This document shows, one piece after another, positions 8,407 to 32,862 of a stretch of DNA of 64,000 nucleotides; positions within the stretch are counted from its first letter, which is position 1; the number at the start of each line of letters is the position of its first letter. A model generated the notes under the pieces. It had not been told where the DNA came from, ran no database searches, and worked only from the letters and a program-made list of their open reading frames with translations. The DNA is from Coriolopsis trogii. Its lineage: Eukaryota > Basidiomycota > Agaricomycetes > Polyporales > Polyporaceae. The DNA lies in assembly GCA_020543525.1 (NCBI GenBank), contig JAHYIO010000039.1, positions 1,922,001-1,986,000 of the forward strand, read 5' to 3'. The position numbers and the translations under genes were made by a program.

Positions 8407-9022
8407 TCACTGCGACGACGACGACCGACTTTGTTGTTTTGTGCGCTCCTTGTCCGTGCTCGACAGGTTGTATTGGTACTGTGAGAAGTTGTCCACTTGA
8501 TATCAAGTTGGAGGAAGCTGATGTACATCCATTTGCACATACAGTACCTGTCCACAACATGATACTCGAGCCCGCGACGGATATTCTTGCTCGCGCGACC
8601 CCTCCATACGTCTACTGTGCTCGCGCATGCACTCAGCCCTGAAGGATCTAAGGAGAAAATACGGAGCACGGGTGCCGCGATGACCATTGGCATGCAGGTG
8701 AGTCTGAGGACAACGCTACGATCGTACACTCTCTCCGCGCAAGACTCGTGCCCCTGTACTATTCTCTTCTTGAGGTCTGGCTACGTTGTTAGAGTATTGT
8801 TCGAGGTGTTTGGGCCGCTCTATTCGTCAGGTCCCTACATGAAAACTCAGCTACTGTACAGAGGTGAGTTATCAACCCCTCCGACAACATACGGTGCCTG
8901 ACAACCACCTGGGACCCCATGTATCCCAGATATGCGAACTTCGGGCACGACGTATCGTTTGCGACGTCGAGCTCGCGCTGCGCGCGAGAATGTAGCGCTC
9001 CGATCGGCCGGGTTGGAGTGGA
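8407..9022. repeat. Segment X, about 0.6 kb, repeated inverted at 24770-25378
   Basis: The sequence from the GACGACGAC run at about 8415 to the CCGGCCGGGTTGG-like end near 9022 reappears as its reverse complement at 24770-25378. Relative to the F-box gene it lies upstream here but downstream in block B, so the two blocks are permuted versions of one another. A minus-strand open frame of about 110 codons is partly kept in both copies, but no function was recognised. Confidence 0.8.
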
Positions 9023-24769: not shown

Positions 24770-25378
24770 TCCTCCAACCCGGCCGATCGGAGTGCTACAT
24801 TCTCGCGCGCAGCGCGAGCTCGACGTTGCAAACGATGCGTCGTGGCCGGAGTTCGCATATCCGGTATACATGGGGTCCCAGGTGGTTGTCAGGCATCGCA
24901 TGTCGGAGGTGTTGATAACGCACCTCTGTAAAGTAGCGGAGTCCTCATGTAGGAACCTGACAAATAGAGCGGCCCAAACACCTCGAACAGTACTCTAACA
25001 ACGTAGCCAGACCTCAGGAACAGTACAGGGGCACGAGTCTTGCGCGGAGAGAGTGCACGATCGTAGCGTTGTCTTCAGACTCACCTGCATGCCAATGGTC
25101 ATCGCGGCACCCGTACTCTGTATTGGCTCTCTGGATCTTCAGGCATGAGTGCATATACGAGCACAGCAGACGTATGGAGGGCTCGCGCGAGCAAGAATAT
25201 CCGTCGCGGGCTCGAGTACCACGTCGCGGACAGGTACTGTATGGGCAAATGTATGTACATCAGCTTCCTCCAACTTAATTTGAAGTGGACGACTTCTCAC
25301 AGTGTTAATACAACCTGTCGAGCACAGACAACGAGCGCACAAAACAACAAAGTCGGTCGTCGTCGTCGTCGCGGTGAA
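24770..25378. repeat. Segment X, inverted relative to 8407-9022
   Basis: Reverse complement of the 8407-9022 segment, starting at CCGGCCGATCGGAGTG and ending in a GTCGTCGTCG tract. It lies downstream of copy B, whereas its partner lies upstream of copy A, next to the Yop1 fragment. This fits an ancestral tandem array X-gene-X from which different halves were kept. Confidence 0.8.
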
Positions 25379-25384
25379 GCATCC

Positions 25385-25476
25385 GGTTGGGTGCGCCACA
25401 GAGGAGAAACACCCGAACTGTCCCCATTTCGCACTCCGCCATCACGTCCCGAACGACTGGTTCTCGAGTCTACTCC
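25385..25476 (+). pseudogene. 5' remnant of F-box/propeller copy C
   Basis: This short coding-like stretch reads HPNCPHFALRHHVPNDWFSS and joins in frame, across two transposon insertions, to MRYATQCLHDNAFPNIAVV at 35725. The intact relative in copy A reads MIRYITQCVQSDYFPNLAVV at the junction. The F-box half is missing and segment X stands in its place. The weaker similarity left of the first insertion makes the exact left edge uncertain. Confidence 0.5.
25468..25476. repeat. Left 9-bp target-site duplication of element 1
   Basis: GTCTACTCC immediately precedes the CAGGCTCC terminus of the element and is repeated exactly at 32854-32862 after the other terminus. Confidence 0.85.
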
Positions 25477-25704
25477 CAGGCTCCTTCCCACCGTGCGCTT
25501 CGGGTTGAGAGGAACGATATTCTAGAGCGAGGGCAAGGCTATGATAGAGTAGCGTACACAGGCTGGATAATACAAGCGCCAAACATCACGTGCCAAAGTT
25601 CTTCCTCTCAACCCTCAGCGACGGCTGGCACCAAACACGAGTAAATAACGGGCGACCGGCCCCGAGACGCCCAATCCGACCCCTTTTGGTAGAGACCCGC
25701 CCGC
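25477..25704 (+). repeat. Left terminal inverted repeat of element 1
   Basis: It matches the reverse complement of 32629-32853 with a handful of substitutions and small indels. The helicase start codon lies about 65 bp inside, so this repeat probably contains the promoter. Confidence 0.85.
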
Positions 25705-25769
25705 CTACATGATATTGATGCGCTTTTTGTGGGTGCGCTGAGAAGAGAGAGTTCCCTTTCCTGTCTATC

Positions 25770-28700
25770 ATGGCTGACCGCCCGCCTCCTGCTTCACCGT
25801 CTATTGCTGAGATCCGAACCAAGACTCTCGAAACCTTCAAATGTACCCCTTGTCTCTGGCAGTGTGAAGTCGCGCAGACCTTGCTCCGAGGTGACAAAGA
25901 TGTCATATGCATCTCCGGTACAGGCTCTGGCAAGACTCTCCCATTCTGGATCCCTCTCCTCTTCCGACCAGGCGGTATCCAGCTAGTTGTAACACCACTC
26001 AATATACTGGGAAGTCAGAACAAGCAGAAGCTGGAGGCTCTCGGCATCAGTGCCATAACAATCACTGGGGAGACTGCCACTCACCAGAACATCCAGGTGA
26101 GTGCATGTATGTGCTTCTAGTGCTGTATGCGACACTTAGTAGTATGTTATATACAAGGATATCCTTGCCTTCAAGTATCGTGTAATTGCCGTGAGCCCCG
26201 AGATGGCGTTTAAGCCGCATGGCGTATTCGAGCAAATCTGGAAGAGCAAGGCCTTCCTAGCGCGTCTCATCAGCGTCATATGGGACGAAGCGCACCTCCT
26301 CAAAGCCTGGCAGTCTTTCCGTCCGGAGATGGGAGAGGCGAGCCGTCTGCGTAACATGATCCCTATATCAATCCCATTCCTCCTTCCCTCTGCGACCATG
26401 CCCAATACCGTACTGTCTGATGTCATAGATACAGCTCGACTATGACGAGAGCATCTCAAGATTATCCGACGGTCAAATGACCGGCCAAATGTTTTTCTCA
26501 CTGTGCGGAAGATTCGGCATGCACTTACAAGTTTCAAAGACCTCGACTTCTTGATCCCCAATGACTGGACCCCTGCACGCCCACTTCCACGTTTCGTCGT
26601 GTTCTTCGACAACATCGACGAGTCTGTGAAGGCGGCAGACGTACTCCGGCTACGTATTCCAAAGGAGCACCGGACACGTATCACCTGGTTTAATGCAAAC
26701 AACACATCGGGGTTCCGAGAGAAGACGACCAACAGATTTCATGACCACAATCTGTATGGTCTACTATGCACGGACGCGTTCGGAATGGTGCGTGTTCATG
26801 CTCATCAGGAAAAATCTGACATACTCGCGAGCGCTCGCACGCCTCGCGAGTTCAGATATACCCCGAGTATAGTCCCCCTTTCCATAGCACCCGAGAGCTC
26901 AGCTGAGCGGCTCGCGAGAGCTCGCGAGCACCCATGAGCACACCATACGCCCCTCGAGGCACTCTCTAGCGCACACTTGTTCTTCTCAAGCTCACACATC
27001 ATATAGCACCGAAAACTAAATATATTTCAAATCAAACACTACATACATATCACAAATACTACAGTAGAAACTATAACTACACCGTCCTGGACAGGCAACA
27101 AACAACATGCAGAATCCTGCTCTATGGGCGGGACCTAGATAGCAAAGAGGGCAGGAGTGTGAGCATGAGAGCAGACCGCAGTTCAGAGGCCAGAGACTGA
27201 GCACCACAAGTAGAGTTTCAACAGCGAAGACCACAGAGTAGATACCAGAGGGCTGAGAGCATGAGTCCAGAAGCAGGTGTTGGTCAGTCCAAAGATCTGC
27301 GTGGGTATGCCATAGTAGGTGATGAGGTGGATCGTCAGTCATGGCTGGACAGAGTCAGCGGAGGCTGAGAGTGCTGGTGAGCATCGGACTTGCTGTTGGG
27401 ATCACCCATGGCGGCCAAGGGGAGCACAGAAAGGCAGACAGAGAGGGAGATAAGACAGTCTTGGTCATCAGGCAAGATTTTGAATGAGGCTTCGGCGCTG
27501 TTGTGCCCGTGGCCTGTGCAAAGACGTTGCCGGAGCCTAGCGGGGCAAGGGACACCGCAGAGACAAGCCTGTGCACAGAGAGGAGACAGTTCCCTGCTTG
27601 TTCATCAAGAGGCTAGAACGGCAACAAGCAGAGAGGCAAGAGGGAGGACGGAGTTGATGAGCGGATTTGCAGAGCTCGGTGGTGGATGGTGTCTCCGGTC
27701 GAAAGGCGAAGGATTGAAACATACAAGGTTTGTCTTGAGGTTGTGCATACTCCGTTCACCGCGCTTGTTACGGATACAAAAGCCTGGAACTATGGGAGAG
27801 GGAGACGCAATATCAGGTATACAGATAGGGAGGGTGGAGAGAGATGCGGAACGAAGGACTCTGCGTTGACTCTTGCCAGCGGGACAGCGTCTATGGTGTG
27901 ATGCGGTTGCTTGCCGAGTTTAGGGCAAGCGCTGCGCTACTCCAGCGATTTTTCTCTCAGCCAACTATGCAGAAATGTGACTGGTGATCGAATGAACGTA
28001 GTCGAAAGGCTGAAAAAACGTTACTCAAACATACTTAGGGCATGTAGCATCACTCCGCGGCAGCATAATACTAATTGTTACTACGAACCTCGGCGCTGCC
28101 GTTTACAGAGGCCTCTCGAGCGCTCTCGAGCCGTTACTATGTCTCTCCCGTCTCTCGAGCTGAACTGGACGCTCGGGTGCAAATGGGTTTTCCCTGATGC
28201 TGAACAACGGCGTGCTAGACTTACGAAAGAGATATAGGGAGTTGACATACCGGATATTGACATTGTTGTCCAGTGGCGTGCGTCCTGTGGCTTGGACACA
28301 CTGTGGCAGTGGTGGGGACGCGCTGCTAGAGGAGTGGGCCAGACGGGGGTCGCAATCCTTCTGGTTGAACCCAAGTACTTCGACGAGGAGAGACGGGCAG
28401 CCGCTGCGAGAGCTGAAAAGCGAAAGCTGGCAGAGGGAAGGCAAGTTGTCGAGAGAGAGAAGAAGAGGAGGAAGAGAACCGAAGGTCGTCCCGGTGCGCC
28501 CAAACGTCCTGGTGGGCGTCAAACGGCGGTCTCCGGAGAAGCAGTGGTGGGCAGCGTGCAGGACGGTGGTGCTGTCCCACCACTCCTCGACATAGACGAG
28601 CCCCTCGCGCCGCTGTCAATATATGAGGAGATCCGGATTGGGTTTGCACAAACGAGAGCAGGACAGCAGAAGGAGACAAAGGGCAAGACAGCAACACACC

Positions 28701-29800
28701 GACTCGGTGCAGAAGACTTACCGCCCGAGCTTGACAGCTTGATTAACGCGGCAACTCGGGCGTGGAAGTGTTACCGTAAGCCTATAGCCGCATTCTATGA
28801 GAATGATAGAATTGGTAAGTGTCGATTCATTGTCCATTGTCTTGCCGTTCTAATATGCTAGTGTTACATAATAGAGTCGGATCATCACCGCTGCAAGCCT
28901 GACGCCGCACAAGGTTGTCCACGCTGTCACCCCTCTGCCTCCTCTACCTGCTGCTCGCTGTGCACTCCAGACGACCCCGCCTTTGCCCTTCTCCCCCCTG
29001 CCAACACTCCTCTATCGAAAGAACCGACCGCACCTCGAGCGTCACGCGTCAGTTCAGTATACAAGATGACCGACGCTGACAAGGAGTTCTGACACGCTCT
29101 CCACCAATTCCGGCGGGAACAAACCGTGAAACTCTACAGCGTGGTCCACCTGCGTAACCTCGGGTATGGTGCTGTAATGGGGGATGAGATCTTCCAGCGG
29201 ATTATGGACTGCGCACGGGTGAGCAAAATCAGAACGATTGAGCAGCTCGAGCGCAAAACGAAGTGGAATCGCGCGCGGGAGCTTGGAGGGGGTGTACTAG
29301 CTCTAATTGACCGGTACGTCTCAACCCAAGTATATTCGCTCCGCTAATTGGACGTGAAACCTCGGATTCATGTTACTTATTTCAGGTTCTATCCACCCGA
29401 CGTCCCTCTGGCAGCAGCTGCGGGCGTAAATGCCCCAAGCAGCGTCATCTCAACCACTTCCCTGACTCTCCTTCGCCCTGTACCATCTGCACCTCCCACT
29501 GCTGGCTCGTCTTCACGGAGGTGCCAGGCGTGCGGTGCGATCGGGCACATCCGATCCAACAAGATATGTCCCAAGTATACGCCACGGGAAACGGCGGCGA
29601 CAACGTACTCCACGGGGGCACATAAGGAGAATCATGCCCCCACATCATCTGCTCACACCCCTGCCGATGTAGTCCCACAACCGGCAGGTACGCCGGCAGG
29701 GGAGGGGTACGCGCACTTCTGGTCAACTTTTGTTGATTCGCCCTCCTACCGTCGCCGTCCACAGTCAATGTCCATCATGGCAGGTGGTGCTGGTATGTAA
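25770..29800 (+). pseudogene. RecQ-like DEAH helicase with zinc knuckle, broken
   Basis: Exon 1 (MADRPPPASPSIAEIRTKTL) carries the Walker A motif GTGSGKT. After an intron (about 26096-26157) come YRVIAVSPEM, VIWDEAHLL (motif II, DEAH), LLPSATM (motif III) and SNDRPNVFLTVR. Then follow PRFVVFFDNIDESVKAA, GLLCTDAFGM and, after a 1450 bp intron (26788-28237), GVDIPDIDIVVQWR and WWGRAARG, which are motifs V and VI. The C-terminus, in a later exon, holds CQACGAIGHIRSNKICP, a zinc-knuckle-like motif. Two in-frame stops break it: TGA at about 26443 (between TARL and REHLKIIRR) and TGA near 29090 (DADKEF then HALHQFRR). The large intron contains a 1397 bp nested element. In related elements this helicase presumably assists transposition. 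Confidence 0.8.
26803..28199. mobile_element. Element N1: CATCAGG-ended insertion nested in helicase intron
   Basis: Left end CATCAGGAAAAATC, right end the inverted GGTTTTCCCTGATG. Both are flanked by CT (26801-26802 and 28200-28201), a 2-bp duplication. The same termini occur on the 1460 bp insertion in copy D (42311-43770). Subterminal regions hold clustered palindromes (CTCGCGAG, GAGCGCTC) on both sides. No transposase was recognised, so it looks non-autonomous. It enlarges a normal-sized helicase intron (GTGCGT donor at 26788, TAG acceptor at 28237). Confidence 0.6.
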
Positions 29801-29810
29801 TTGTTCTCTA

Positions 29811-32603
29811 TCATAGTACTCCATCAACGCTCAGATCGTCTGCTGTTAGGTCCGTCTCGCCTTCCTGCTCCTCATCTCCATTCAACTCCTTGTCCATCAC
29901 ATGATCCTCATCCGGAACGTTAGTTTCTTCTGCCTGTTTTGTACGGTGCGACTCGCTTTCGATTATTGCTGCCCCTCGGACGAGGACATTCGGTGTTTTG
30001 TATTTAGTGGCACGTCCCGCTTTGTACTCGTTAGGTTGCAATTTCTTGACGTGTTCGAGGATGCTTGTGAAGGTTGCGGTCATGTCTGGTTTGCTGTGTG
30101 CATGTGAGAGGCCAGACAGGTGGAAAATGTGTTCGAAGTCAGCGTGCGTGCTGCGGTATATGCTGATAAGAATGGACTCGAGGATGATGCGATCCTTGGT
30201 GTAGTTGGGGCCGTCACCCCCATATGTCACCTAAACACCAATTTTAGTCTGTGCATACGTGAACTTATACTTCAATAGCTTGATACCTTTGTATACAGGT
30301 TGAGGAGTTCCACAAGCCAGTCAACCGTGCGGAAGGCATTTGGTTTACCCGTCGGGTTCACAAGTATGTTATACCATATAGCGCGCCTGGATATATCATG
30401 AGGCACGAGTCTTTGTCTCTCCAGACATATATCATAAAGACACGTACCGTAATCCCTCTGGATACACAAAGTACAAAGAGTGCATGAAGCGGAGAGTTTG
30501 ATTGCCATACTTGTGTTTCCCGGTCGCACGGAAGATCTGGATCCATGGGACTAGGAGGGTCTCCACCCTGCCAATATCCCCAGCGTTCATGGCATAGCAG
30601 AGTTCCTCGTAAAGTAAAAGATGATGTTGCAAGCGCATGACGTTCTGTCGAACCTCGTCCTGCCCATCTTGATACTCGCCTTGAAAGTCAAACAGATCCT
30701 GCCCCTCCCCTTCGATGTAATCGAGCACCAGAGTGTCGGCGACGTCTTGGACCTCGGTTGCTGATGGTTTCGTTGCTGCCCATGCCTCGAGACTGTCATA
30801 TCCTGTCCTCTTCTGTACTTCGACACGCCATGCATCCAGAACCAGCAGACTGAGGACATGTCCAATTAGCTCGTGTTGTTGTCGGAACTTGGCGTTCGAA
30901 ACAAGGCGCGAGCTTTCCCGAGGGCGCAGCTTCCCTACGAGTTTGATGAAGCTCATCTCATCCATACGCGCATCGTCCGGAGTCACATGAATGCGCCAGA
31001 TAGCATCCGCCGCTGCCATCCGGAGGTGAAAGAGTCCAAGGGCGAAGACAACACCCTGAAGACGGTCGTATTCCGTCTCTTCAACAGAGCGATGGGTGAG
31101 GGCTGACAAAACACGTTCATATGTCCCCAGATCGCCAAAAACAATGGCTACAAACTCCCGAAAGTCGACCAGGTCATGAGGAGCATGCGCATGTTCTGGA
31201 TCACCGACACCGGCTTGCGCAAACATGTTGAGGAGCGCCTCGATGTTGCCCGAGACCTTTGACTGGTTGAGGTCCATTGTACGGAGCGGAAGATATTGTA
31301 GTCTTGTAACGGGAATCAATTCCACACTTTCCGGATCACGGAGTGAGTTAGAGAGAGAGCGGAAGCCAGGCGGGCCTGCAGTAGATAGGGTCCGCTGCAA
31401 GAACCATGACCGGTAGCGACCACGGCGACTGAGTTCTTGTTCCTTCGGCTCTGGTTCGGGGTGTAGGTCATAGATATATTGCATGGTCCGGTAAGGGTCA
31501 AAAGGACGAGGGTCGGAGGCGAGCGGGTTCAGCGCAGAGCGATCCCACAGCAGTTGTGAGCAGCGGAGGTCGTCGAGGGTCACACCGTGGTTGAGTCGAA
31601 ATAACAGACCCGAAGTGAGATGCACAAGACCGTCTCCTGGCTTGTCAATGGTGGGGATACCTGTGGTGAGCATGAACTCGAAGTTGTCATATGCGTATGC
31701 GGCAAGGAGTGTCTGCCCCAAGTCTCGGACATCGTCGCAGGCTTCTTCGGACAGCGAGGCCACGGCGCGGTGAATCGAGGTGAGCGAGATTGACACACCC
31801 ATTCTTGCGAGAACCTTGATGACCTTATCGGGGGTGTTGCATGAGTGTAAGAAAACACCAACAGCAGTCTGGAGCATGTTGCAGCACTGGTTCTGATTGT
31901 GCATGAGGACGGACATTATAACAACAATCTTCTGCTCCAGAGACAGGTCAATACTTATGAAGATTGATTGATCACTACATCAACCGCTACATACAATGCG
32001 AGTCACGACGCTGCGAGATATACGCGACCGACGGGCCTGTCTGCCTTGGGCTCTCTCAGATCCCTGTGGCTCCCGACCTCTATCGTCATCCAGCTCAGCC
32101 CAGTACTCTTCATCAGAGTCATCCAGGTCAATTGTACCATCTCCTGTCCCAGAAGAGGGTGTCGCACCACCCAGCAACGTCTCTAGCAAACTCCATACCA
32201 TCGGAGCGTGTGCCTCCATCGCAGACGCCATATGTTCGACTCGGAAGCCCTGCAACTGGGCCGGTGATGCGTGCGTAGCGGAGAAATGCCAGCCTTGCGA
32301 GGGAAGGGAGAGATCGTGAATGGAATTGCTGTAGAGAGTTCGCATAGCGTCATGAGCCCATGTCCGAGTCGCAGCGCCCATGTCCGGGTGGTAGTAGAAC
32401 GCGGATAGGATGGTTTTGGTATTGTCTATGAGATCATGGAAGAGGGGATGTGAAGGTTGATTTAGCTGCCTTGAGACCAGGATGAAACGCAGAAGCTCTG
32501 AGATGGTGACCCCGACAGTGTGCAGATACACGAGAGCTCCGTGCAGAACATGATAGCGAGACTCCATGTGAGTCGAGTGGATGCACGCAGAGAGGAGGCG
32601 CAC
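29811..32603 (-). CDS. DUF6589-domain protein, probable transposase of element 1
   Basis: The minus strand encodes four exons. Exon 1 is 207 codons (32603 to about 31980, MESRYHVLHGALVYLHTVGV as an alternative start). Exon 2 is about 500 codons from MSVLMHNQNQCCNMLQTAVG. A 25-codon exon contains NILVNPTGKPNAFR. The last exon begins VTYGGDGPNYTKDR and ends in an acidic tail (29811). The introns are 57-65 bp. The segments AYAYDNFEFML, VFGDLGTYERVLSAL, GLFHLRMAAADAIW and FRATGKHKYGNQ are the conserved landmarks of the fungal DUF6589 family. The invariant Asp residues in YDN and GDL are candidates for an RNase H-like active site. The gene starts just inside the right terminal repeat and converges on the helicase gene, leaving only 10 bp between them. 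No stop or frameshift was seen, so it may still be functional. The function is inferred from context, not proven. Confidence 0.8.
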
Positions 32604-32628
32604 GTCGCGCGTACCGAGTAGTAAATGA

Positions 32629-32853
32629 ACGGGTGGGTCTCTACCAAAAGGGGTGGGATTGGGCGTCTCGGGGCCGGTCGCCCGTTATTTACTCGTGTTT
32701 GGTGCCAGCCGTCACTGAGGGTTGAGAGGGAAAACTTTGGCACGTGATGTATGGCGCTTACATGTTAATGCCTGTGTTACGCTAAGATTGGTTTATTCTT
32801 TCGCTCTAGATATCGTCCCTCTCAACCCGAAGTGTGCGGTGGGAAGGAGCCTG
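32629..32853 (-). repeat. Right terminal inverted repeat of element 1
   Basis: Inverted partner of 25477-25704, ending GGTGGGAAGGAGCCTG. It probably contains the promoter of the DUF6589 gene. Confidence 0.85.
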
Positions 32854-32862
32854 GTCTACTCC
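32854..32862. repeat. Right 9-bp target-site duplication of element 1
   Basis: GTCTACTCC, identical to 25468-25476. Twelve bases further on comes the TA of the second insertion. Confidence 0.85.

Follow-up and report, generated by a model that had tools for sequence, protein, structure and literature searches.

We describe a transposon in a 64,000-nt stretch of the Coriolopsis trogii genome (GCA_020543525.1, contig JAHYIO010000039.1, positions 1,922,001-1,986,000 of the forward strand; hereafter the window, within which positions are given unless a contig or locus is named). It is most likely a cut-and-paste DNA transposon of the AcademH lineage, in which an 858-residue protein with the DUF6589 domain would serve as the transposase and a RecQ-like helicase as its partner; we assign this reading a probability of about 0.83. 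The element occupies 25477-32853 (7,377 bp), its ends are exact, and its termini are CAGGCTCC...GGAGCCTG. An earlier note on this DNA had reported a perfect 9-bp duplication, long inverted repeats (given as 228 bp) and two convergent genes, each beginning just inside one terminal repeat, the DUF6589 gene open and the helicase gene with two stops. All of this was confirmed by our alignments and gene models, which used GT-AG introns and inferred start codons. The inferred starts, at 25770 (helicase) and 32567 (DUF6589), lie about 60 bp inside their own repeats, and the genes lie tail to tail: the helicase stop codon ends at 29800 and that of DUF6589 at 29811, 10 bp apart. The parts of the element are as follows.

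25468-25476, no strand: target site duplication, left copy GTCTACTCC (9/9 identity to 32854-32862)
25477-25703, plus strand: left terminal inverted repeat, starting CAGGCTCC (227/224 bp aligned, 85.6% identity to the right repeat)
25770-26096, plus strand: helicase exon 1, Walker A GTGSGKT, start codon inferred (Pfam DEAD, E 1.9e-09)
26143-26787, plus strand: helicase exon 2, DEAH box, TGA stop at 26443-26445 (Pfam DEAD, E 1.9e-06)
28238-28814, plus strand: helicase exon 3, helicase C-terminal domain, motif GRAARG (Helicase_C, E 3e-10, joined piece)
28875-29313, plus strand: helicase exon 4, Cys cluster, TGA stop at 29090-29092 (region matched in other copies)
29386-29800, plus strand: helicase exon 5, CCHC zinc knuckle, stop codon at 29798-29800 (Pfam zf-CCHC_6, E 1.1e-07)
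29811-30230, minus strand: DUF6589 exon 4, including the stop codon (gene model)
30287-30386, minus strand: DUF6589 exon 3, proposed catalytic Glu712 at 30310-30308 (gene model and conservation)
30448-31931, minus strand: DUF6589 exon 2, proposed catalytic Asp273 at 31688-31686 and Asp458 at 31133-31131 (PF20231, E 4.8e-71)
31995-32567, minus strand: DUF6589 exon 1, N-terminal region, start codon inferred (gene model)
32630-32853, minus strand: right terminal inverted repeat, ending GGAGCCTG (aligned to the left repeat)
32854-32862, no strand: target site duplication, right copy GTCTACTCC (9/9 identity to 25468-25476)

The association of the two genes recurs across the host genome, the one assembly searched (38.8 Mb in 39 contigs); the search scores only the best candidates, and copy counts are lower bounds. 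The PF20231 profile gave 21 matches that were grouped into 12 loci, and helicase sequence was found near 11 of them. Each of the 10 matches to helicase exon 2 lay at most 5 kb from a DUF6589 match; the eleventh locus (C7) has helicase C-terminal sequence alongside, and at the twelfth (C3:1146739, L053), an internally deleted derivative of 1,677 bp, no helicase match was found. The expectation that both genes would co-occur between inverted repeats with 9-bp duplications was thus borne out within this genome.

Ten elements are flanked by perfect 9-bp duplications: three are short derivatives (L053, L066 and L067), and seven carry both genes. The seven comprise the window copy, L043, L045, L046 and L048, which form lineage A with common CAGGCTCC ends, and L049 and L050 of lineage B, with ends TAGRCTCG; the ends of both lineages agree as YAGRCTCS. 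All ten elements with both ends defined showed a 9/9 flank match, compared with 2 of 184,084 random position pairs, the ends of L049, L050 and L053 having come from a scan that itself required the duplication and those of the other seven from terminal motifs. A chance origin of the duplications is therefore excluded; they measure 9 bp in all ten, none reaching 10, and their sequences are mixed. Outside the ten stand L047 (349-bp repeats, 99% identical), where no duplication was found at the altered right end; the truncated L044; L051 and L052, for which neither ends nor a duplication with defined ends were found; and L054-L056, with a left end of CAGGCTCC type and an incomplete right end. Chance end pairs at L044 and at L048 (a second CAGGCTCC) lacked a duplication and were dropped. 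The left terminal inverted repeat has 11 matches across the genome, counting the window element's own arms, and near-identical copies of that element are L044 (99%) and L043 (contig C34), the latter 98% identical in both of the parts that align. The genes are convergent in lineage A and at the single lineage-C locus, L051, and divergent in lineage B. The lineage-B derivatives L066 (1504-2002, 499 bp) and L067 (860-1554, 695 bp) have ends with the palindrome-like pair CCAGTCGTTCGGG...CCCGAACGACTGG.

The DUF6589 gene (minus strand, four exons) is free of stops, and its product is predicted to be a DDE/RNase-H-type transposase, as the earlier note had supposed; this assignment is well supported by the predicted fold and by near-invariant acidic residues. 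DUF6589 gave no sequence match in the PDB at E-values up to 1. AlphaFold models from two DUF6589 lineages (14% identical), compared with RNase H-fold transposases as had been suggested, found as best matches the DDE transposases Hermes, Tn5, P element, ISCth4 and RAG1. With hAT (Hermes), P element and RAG1/Transib, the best structural matches, the models have in common a helical insertion that precedes the last acid, with no sequence match. In lineage A the candidate acids are D249 (74/76), D429 (74/76) and E683 (52 of 52 rows with a residue, 24/76 being gapped there), which correspond to D273, D458 and E712 of the window protein. Their lineage-B equivalents, counted in the 75 of 120 listed proteins with at least 800 residues, are D184 (74/74), D342 (75/75) and E618 (72/72). 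For lineage C, where 86 of 120 listed proteins plus one open reading frame were used and the Asp positions counted with Glu left out, the values were 85/86 for D219 and 87/87 for D390; its profile consensus retains a QEHN motif. Since other residues are equally conserved (for example H271, H464, H515 and K634 of P0006), conservation alone cannot name the triad, and it is the fold that does so; an RNase H fold with an Asp, Asp, Glu triad is what prediction and conservation together indicate. E619 of the first structure model was weighed as a candidate for the last acid and set aside in favour of E683, which has a lineage-B counterpart and which the aligned ranges put near what we take to be the position of the last acid of Hermes. 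Because the Pfam DUF6589 model begins after the first Asp, part of the catalytic core lies outside it.

Mutator elements make duplications of 9-11 bp and often have long inverted repeats, features also found here (9 bp and ~227 bp), and the element could on this account be a very divergent Mutator-like transposon with an acquired helicase. We regard this as very improbable, given that Pfam scans of 13 whole or partial DUF6589 proteins, at E-values up to 1, detected no MULE or Transposase_mut domain, and that Hermes outscores ISCth4 in both structure models. As for the best structural matches, hAT and P elements produce 8-bp duplications, and neither they nor RAG1/Transib are known to carry a RecQ helicase as a rule; hAT was rejected on the 9-bp rather than 8-bp duplication and because the Pfam scans showed no hAT domain.

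Selection has acted on both genes. Among diverged lineage-A elements the proportions of nonsynonymous differences (pN) were 0.18-0.47 and those of synonymous differences (pS) 0.71-0.84 in both genes; synonymous sites are near saturation between these copies, for which reason pN and pS are given instead of dN/dS. Between the window copy and L043, pN/pS was 0.008/0.023 for DUF6589 and 0.014/0.040 for the helicase. That pN lies well below pS shows that both genes were under purifying selection while the elements spread. This result, together with the predicted DDE fold and the conserved acids, counts against the idea that the element merely captured DUF6589, as a gene of the host or a passenger, movement being driven by the helicase alone or by a lost protein. 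Although no part other than the helicase belongs to a named enzyme family, such a scenario is scarcely credible, as DUF6589 has been kept in diverged elements and Pfam scans found no HUH or other recombinase domain in either protein. Many present copies are damaged, with stops in DUF6589 exon 2 of L045, L046 and L047 and in the helicase knuckle of L043, and no copy with both genes intact was established among the genome copies.

The helicase gene (plus strand, five exons, 800 codons) encodes a RecQ-like protein with a Cys cluster and a CCHC zinc knuckle, and the L043 helicase has as best PDB matches WRN, RecQ, RECQ1 and BLM (E 1.7e-17 and weaker). After splicing, the window gene contains exactly two in-frame TGA codons, at 26443-26445 and 29090-29092; L043 has Arg at both positions and a stop of its own within the zinc knuckle. 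Judged from its reading frame, the window copy is no longer able to make its own full helicase, and with an open transposase gene and a broken helicase it would rely on another copy for the latter. Helitrons, which generate no target duplication, were rejected because 9-bp duplications and inverted repeats are present and Pfam scans showed no HUH domain; as described in PMC12730594, they combine a HUH Rep with a helicase. A longer helicase query gave 27 matches, corresponding to the same ten loci and to three places with no DUF6589 nearby, all of the N-terminal part: C28:1330840-1330992 (60%, 50 residues), C3:187897-188220 (40%) and C3:2445391 (30%, E 6e-4). The first two may be relics or belong to genes that have acquired a piece of the helicase.

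AcademH reportedly comprises helicase-encoding Academ DNA transposons of animals and fungi (Kojima, 2020). As cited, its duplications are of 9 or 10 bp; AcademX, placed in the same superfamily, differs by duplications of 3 or 4 bp and by a nuclease in place of the helicase, to which Kojima ties the difference in length (PMC10045372). AcademH is further described as low-copy in Basidiomycota, Ascomycota and Mucoromycota (PMC10799480). The window element, compared by description, is likewise a DNA transposon that encodes a helicase beside its predicted transposase in a basidiomycete, and its 9-bp duplication falls within the AcademH range and not that of AcademX. It shows three of the four AcademH features listed and was therefore filed as a probable AcademH member, a fit made by description. 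The suggestion of the earlier note that it might define an undescribed superfamily is not supported, weakened as it is by helicase-encoding AcademH elements with 9- or 10-bp duplications already in print in 2020.

DUF6589 itself is named in none of the literature searched (most subscription papers being outside its coverage), which seems not to have connected it with a transposase, and the four papers listed for PF20231 bear titles on unrelated subjects; DUF6589 as a transposase domain, the two gene layouts and the common YAGRCTCS ends are apparently unreported in that literature. This absence leaves room for a superfamily separate from Academ, defined by a DDE (DUF6589) transposase, a RecQ-like helicase and 9-bp duplications, whose likeness to AcademH would be convergent, and KolobokH shows that a RecQ helicase was gained by at least one other superfamily (PMC9587614). 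It would hold at least three deep mushroom lineages, with convergent and divergent layouts and YAGRCTCS ends, and would require its own RecQ-like helicase as a second factor in transposition. However, the helicase, the 9-bp duplication and the basidiomycete host all fit AcademH as cited, and we consider a separate superfamily unlikely. KolobokH, described as a DDE transposase with a RecQ helicase and known there only from fungi, resembles the window element in this pairing, from which it differs in duplication and in gene layout, the genes here being on opposite strands. One rhodophyte Kolobok has its RecQ helicase on the complementary strand (PMC9587614), so layout alone does not decide the matter and counts for little; KolobokH is ruled out by mixed-sequence 9-bp duplications as opposed to the 4-bp TTAA.

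Under the AcademH reading, we propose that DUF6589 acts as an RNase-H-fold DDE nuclease, with D273, D458 and E712 as its putative triad and a helical segment inserted ahead of E712. The transposase would bind the ~200-bp inverted repeats starting YAGRCTCS, pair both ends, excise the element and join its ends to the target strands with a 9-bp stagger, and the resulting 9-nt gaps would then be filled by host repair. What the helicase contributes is a guess: probably it unwinds the element's ends or the target, or assists in processing the 9-nt gaps.

The window copy measures 7.4 kb rather than 6.0 kb because of an insertion overlooked in the earlier note; without it, L043 has a length of 5,971 bp.

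26803-28199, no strand: nested insertion of 1,397 bp in helicase intron 2 (missing from L043 and L044)

It starts CATCAGG, ends CCCTGATG, and is flanked by a CT duplication (26801-26802 and 28200-28201). According to PMC12730594, PlavakaB elements have CATCA..TGATG ends and 2- or 3-bp duplications, and by its ends and its CT duplication the insertion is therefore probably a non-autonomous PlavakaB.

Immediately to the left of the element lies a further relative.

25380-25472, no strand: left-flank remnant of a lineage-B relative, internally deleted, ending ...TTCTCGAGTCTA (outer left end undefined)

The window element inserted beside this remnant, and its 9-bp duplication takes in the remnant's last five bases. 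A search for an empty site with the joined flanks gave 30 matches, none across the junction, both flanks being repetitive. An inverted 116-bp repeat (25253-25368 and 8413-8528, 92%) lies outside the element.

Three protein searches returned 451, 207 and 140 matches (overlaps unchecked), with PF20231 in all 120 listed for each; scoring in the first two was limited to the candidates with the most words in common. These numbers are consistent with the earlier claim that DUF6589 proteins are abundant in mushroom genomes with no assigned function. No animal source was noticed among the matches listed (120 per search, many with no source name), and relatives in animals may exist. Three Ganoderma boninense proteins (P0020, P0138 and P0329) are recorded as RNA helicases (two) or as a transcriptional regulator, their precomputed Pfam domain being DUF6589 only. 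With DUF6589 read as a transposase, annotators can mask such genes as transposon genes, and this kind of misnaming stops. Furthermore, the element offers a testable two-part system for why a cut-and-paste transposon needs a helicase.
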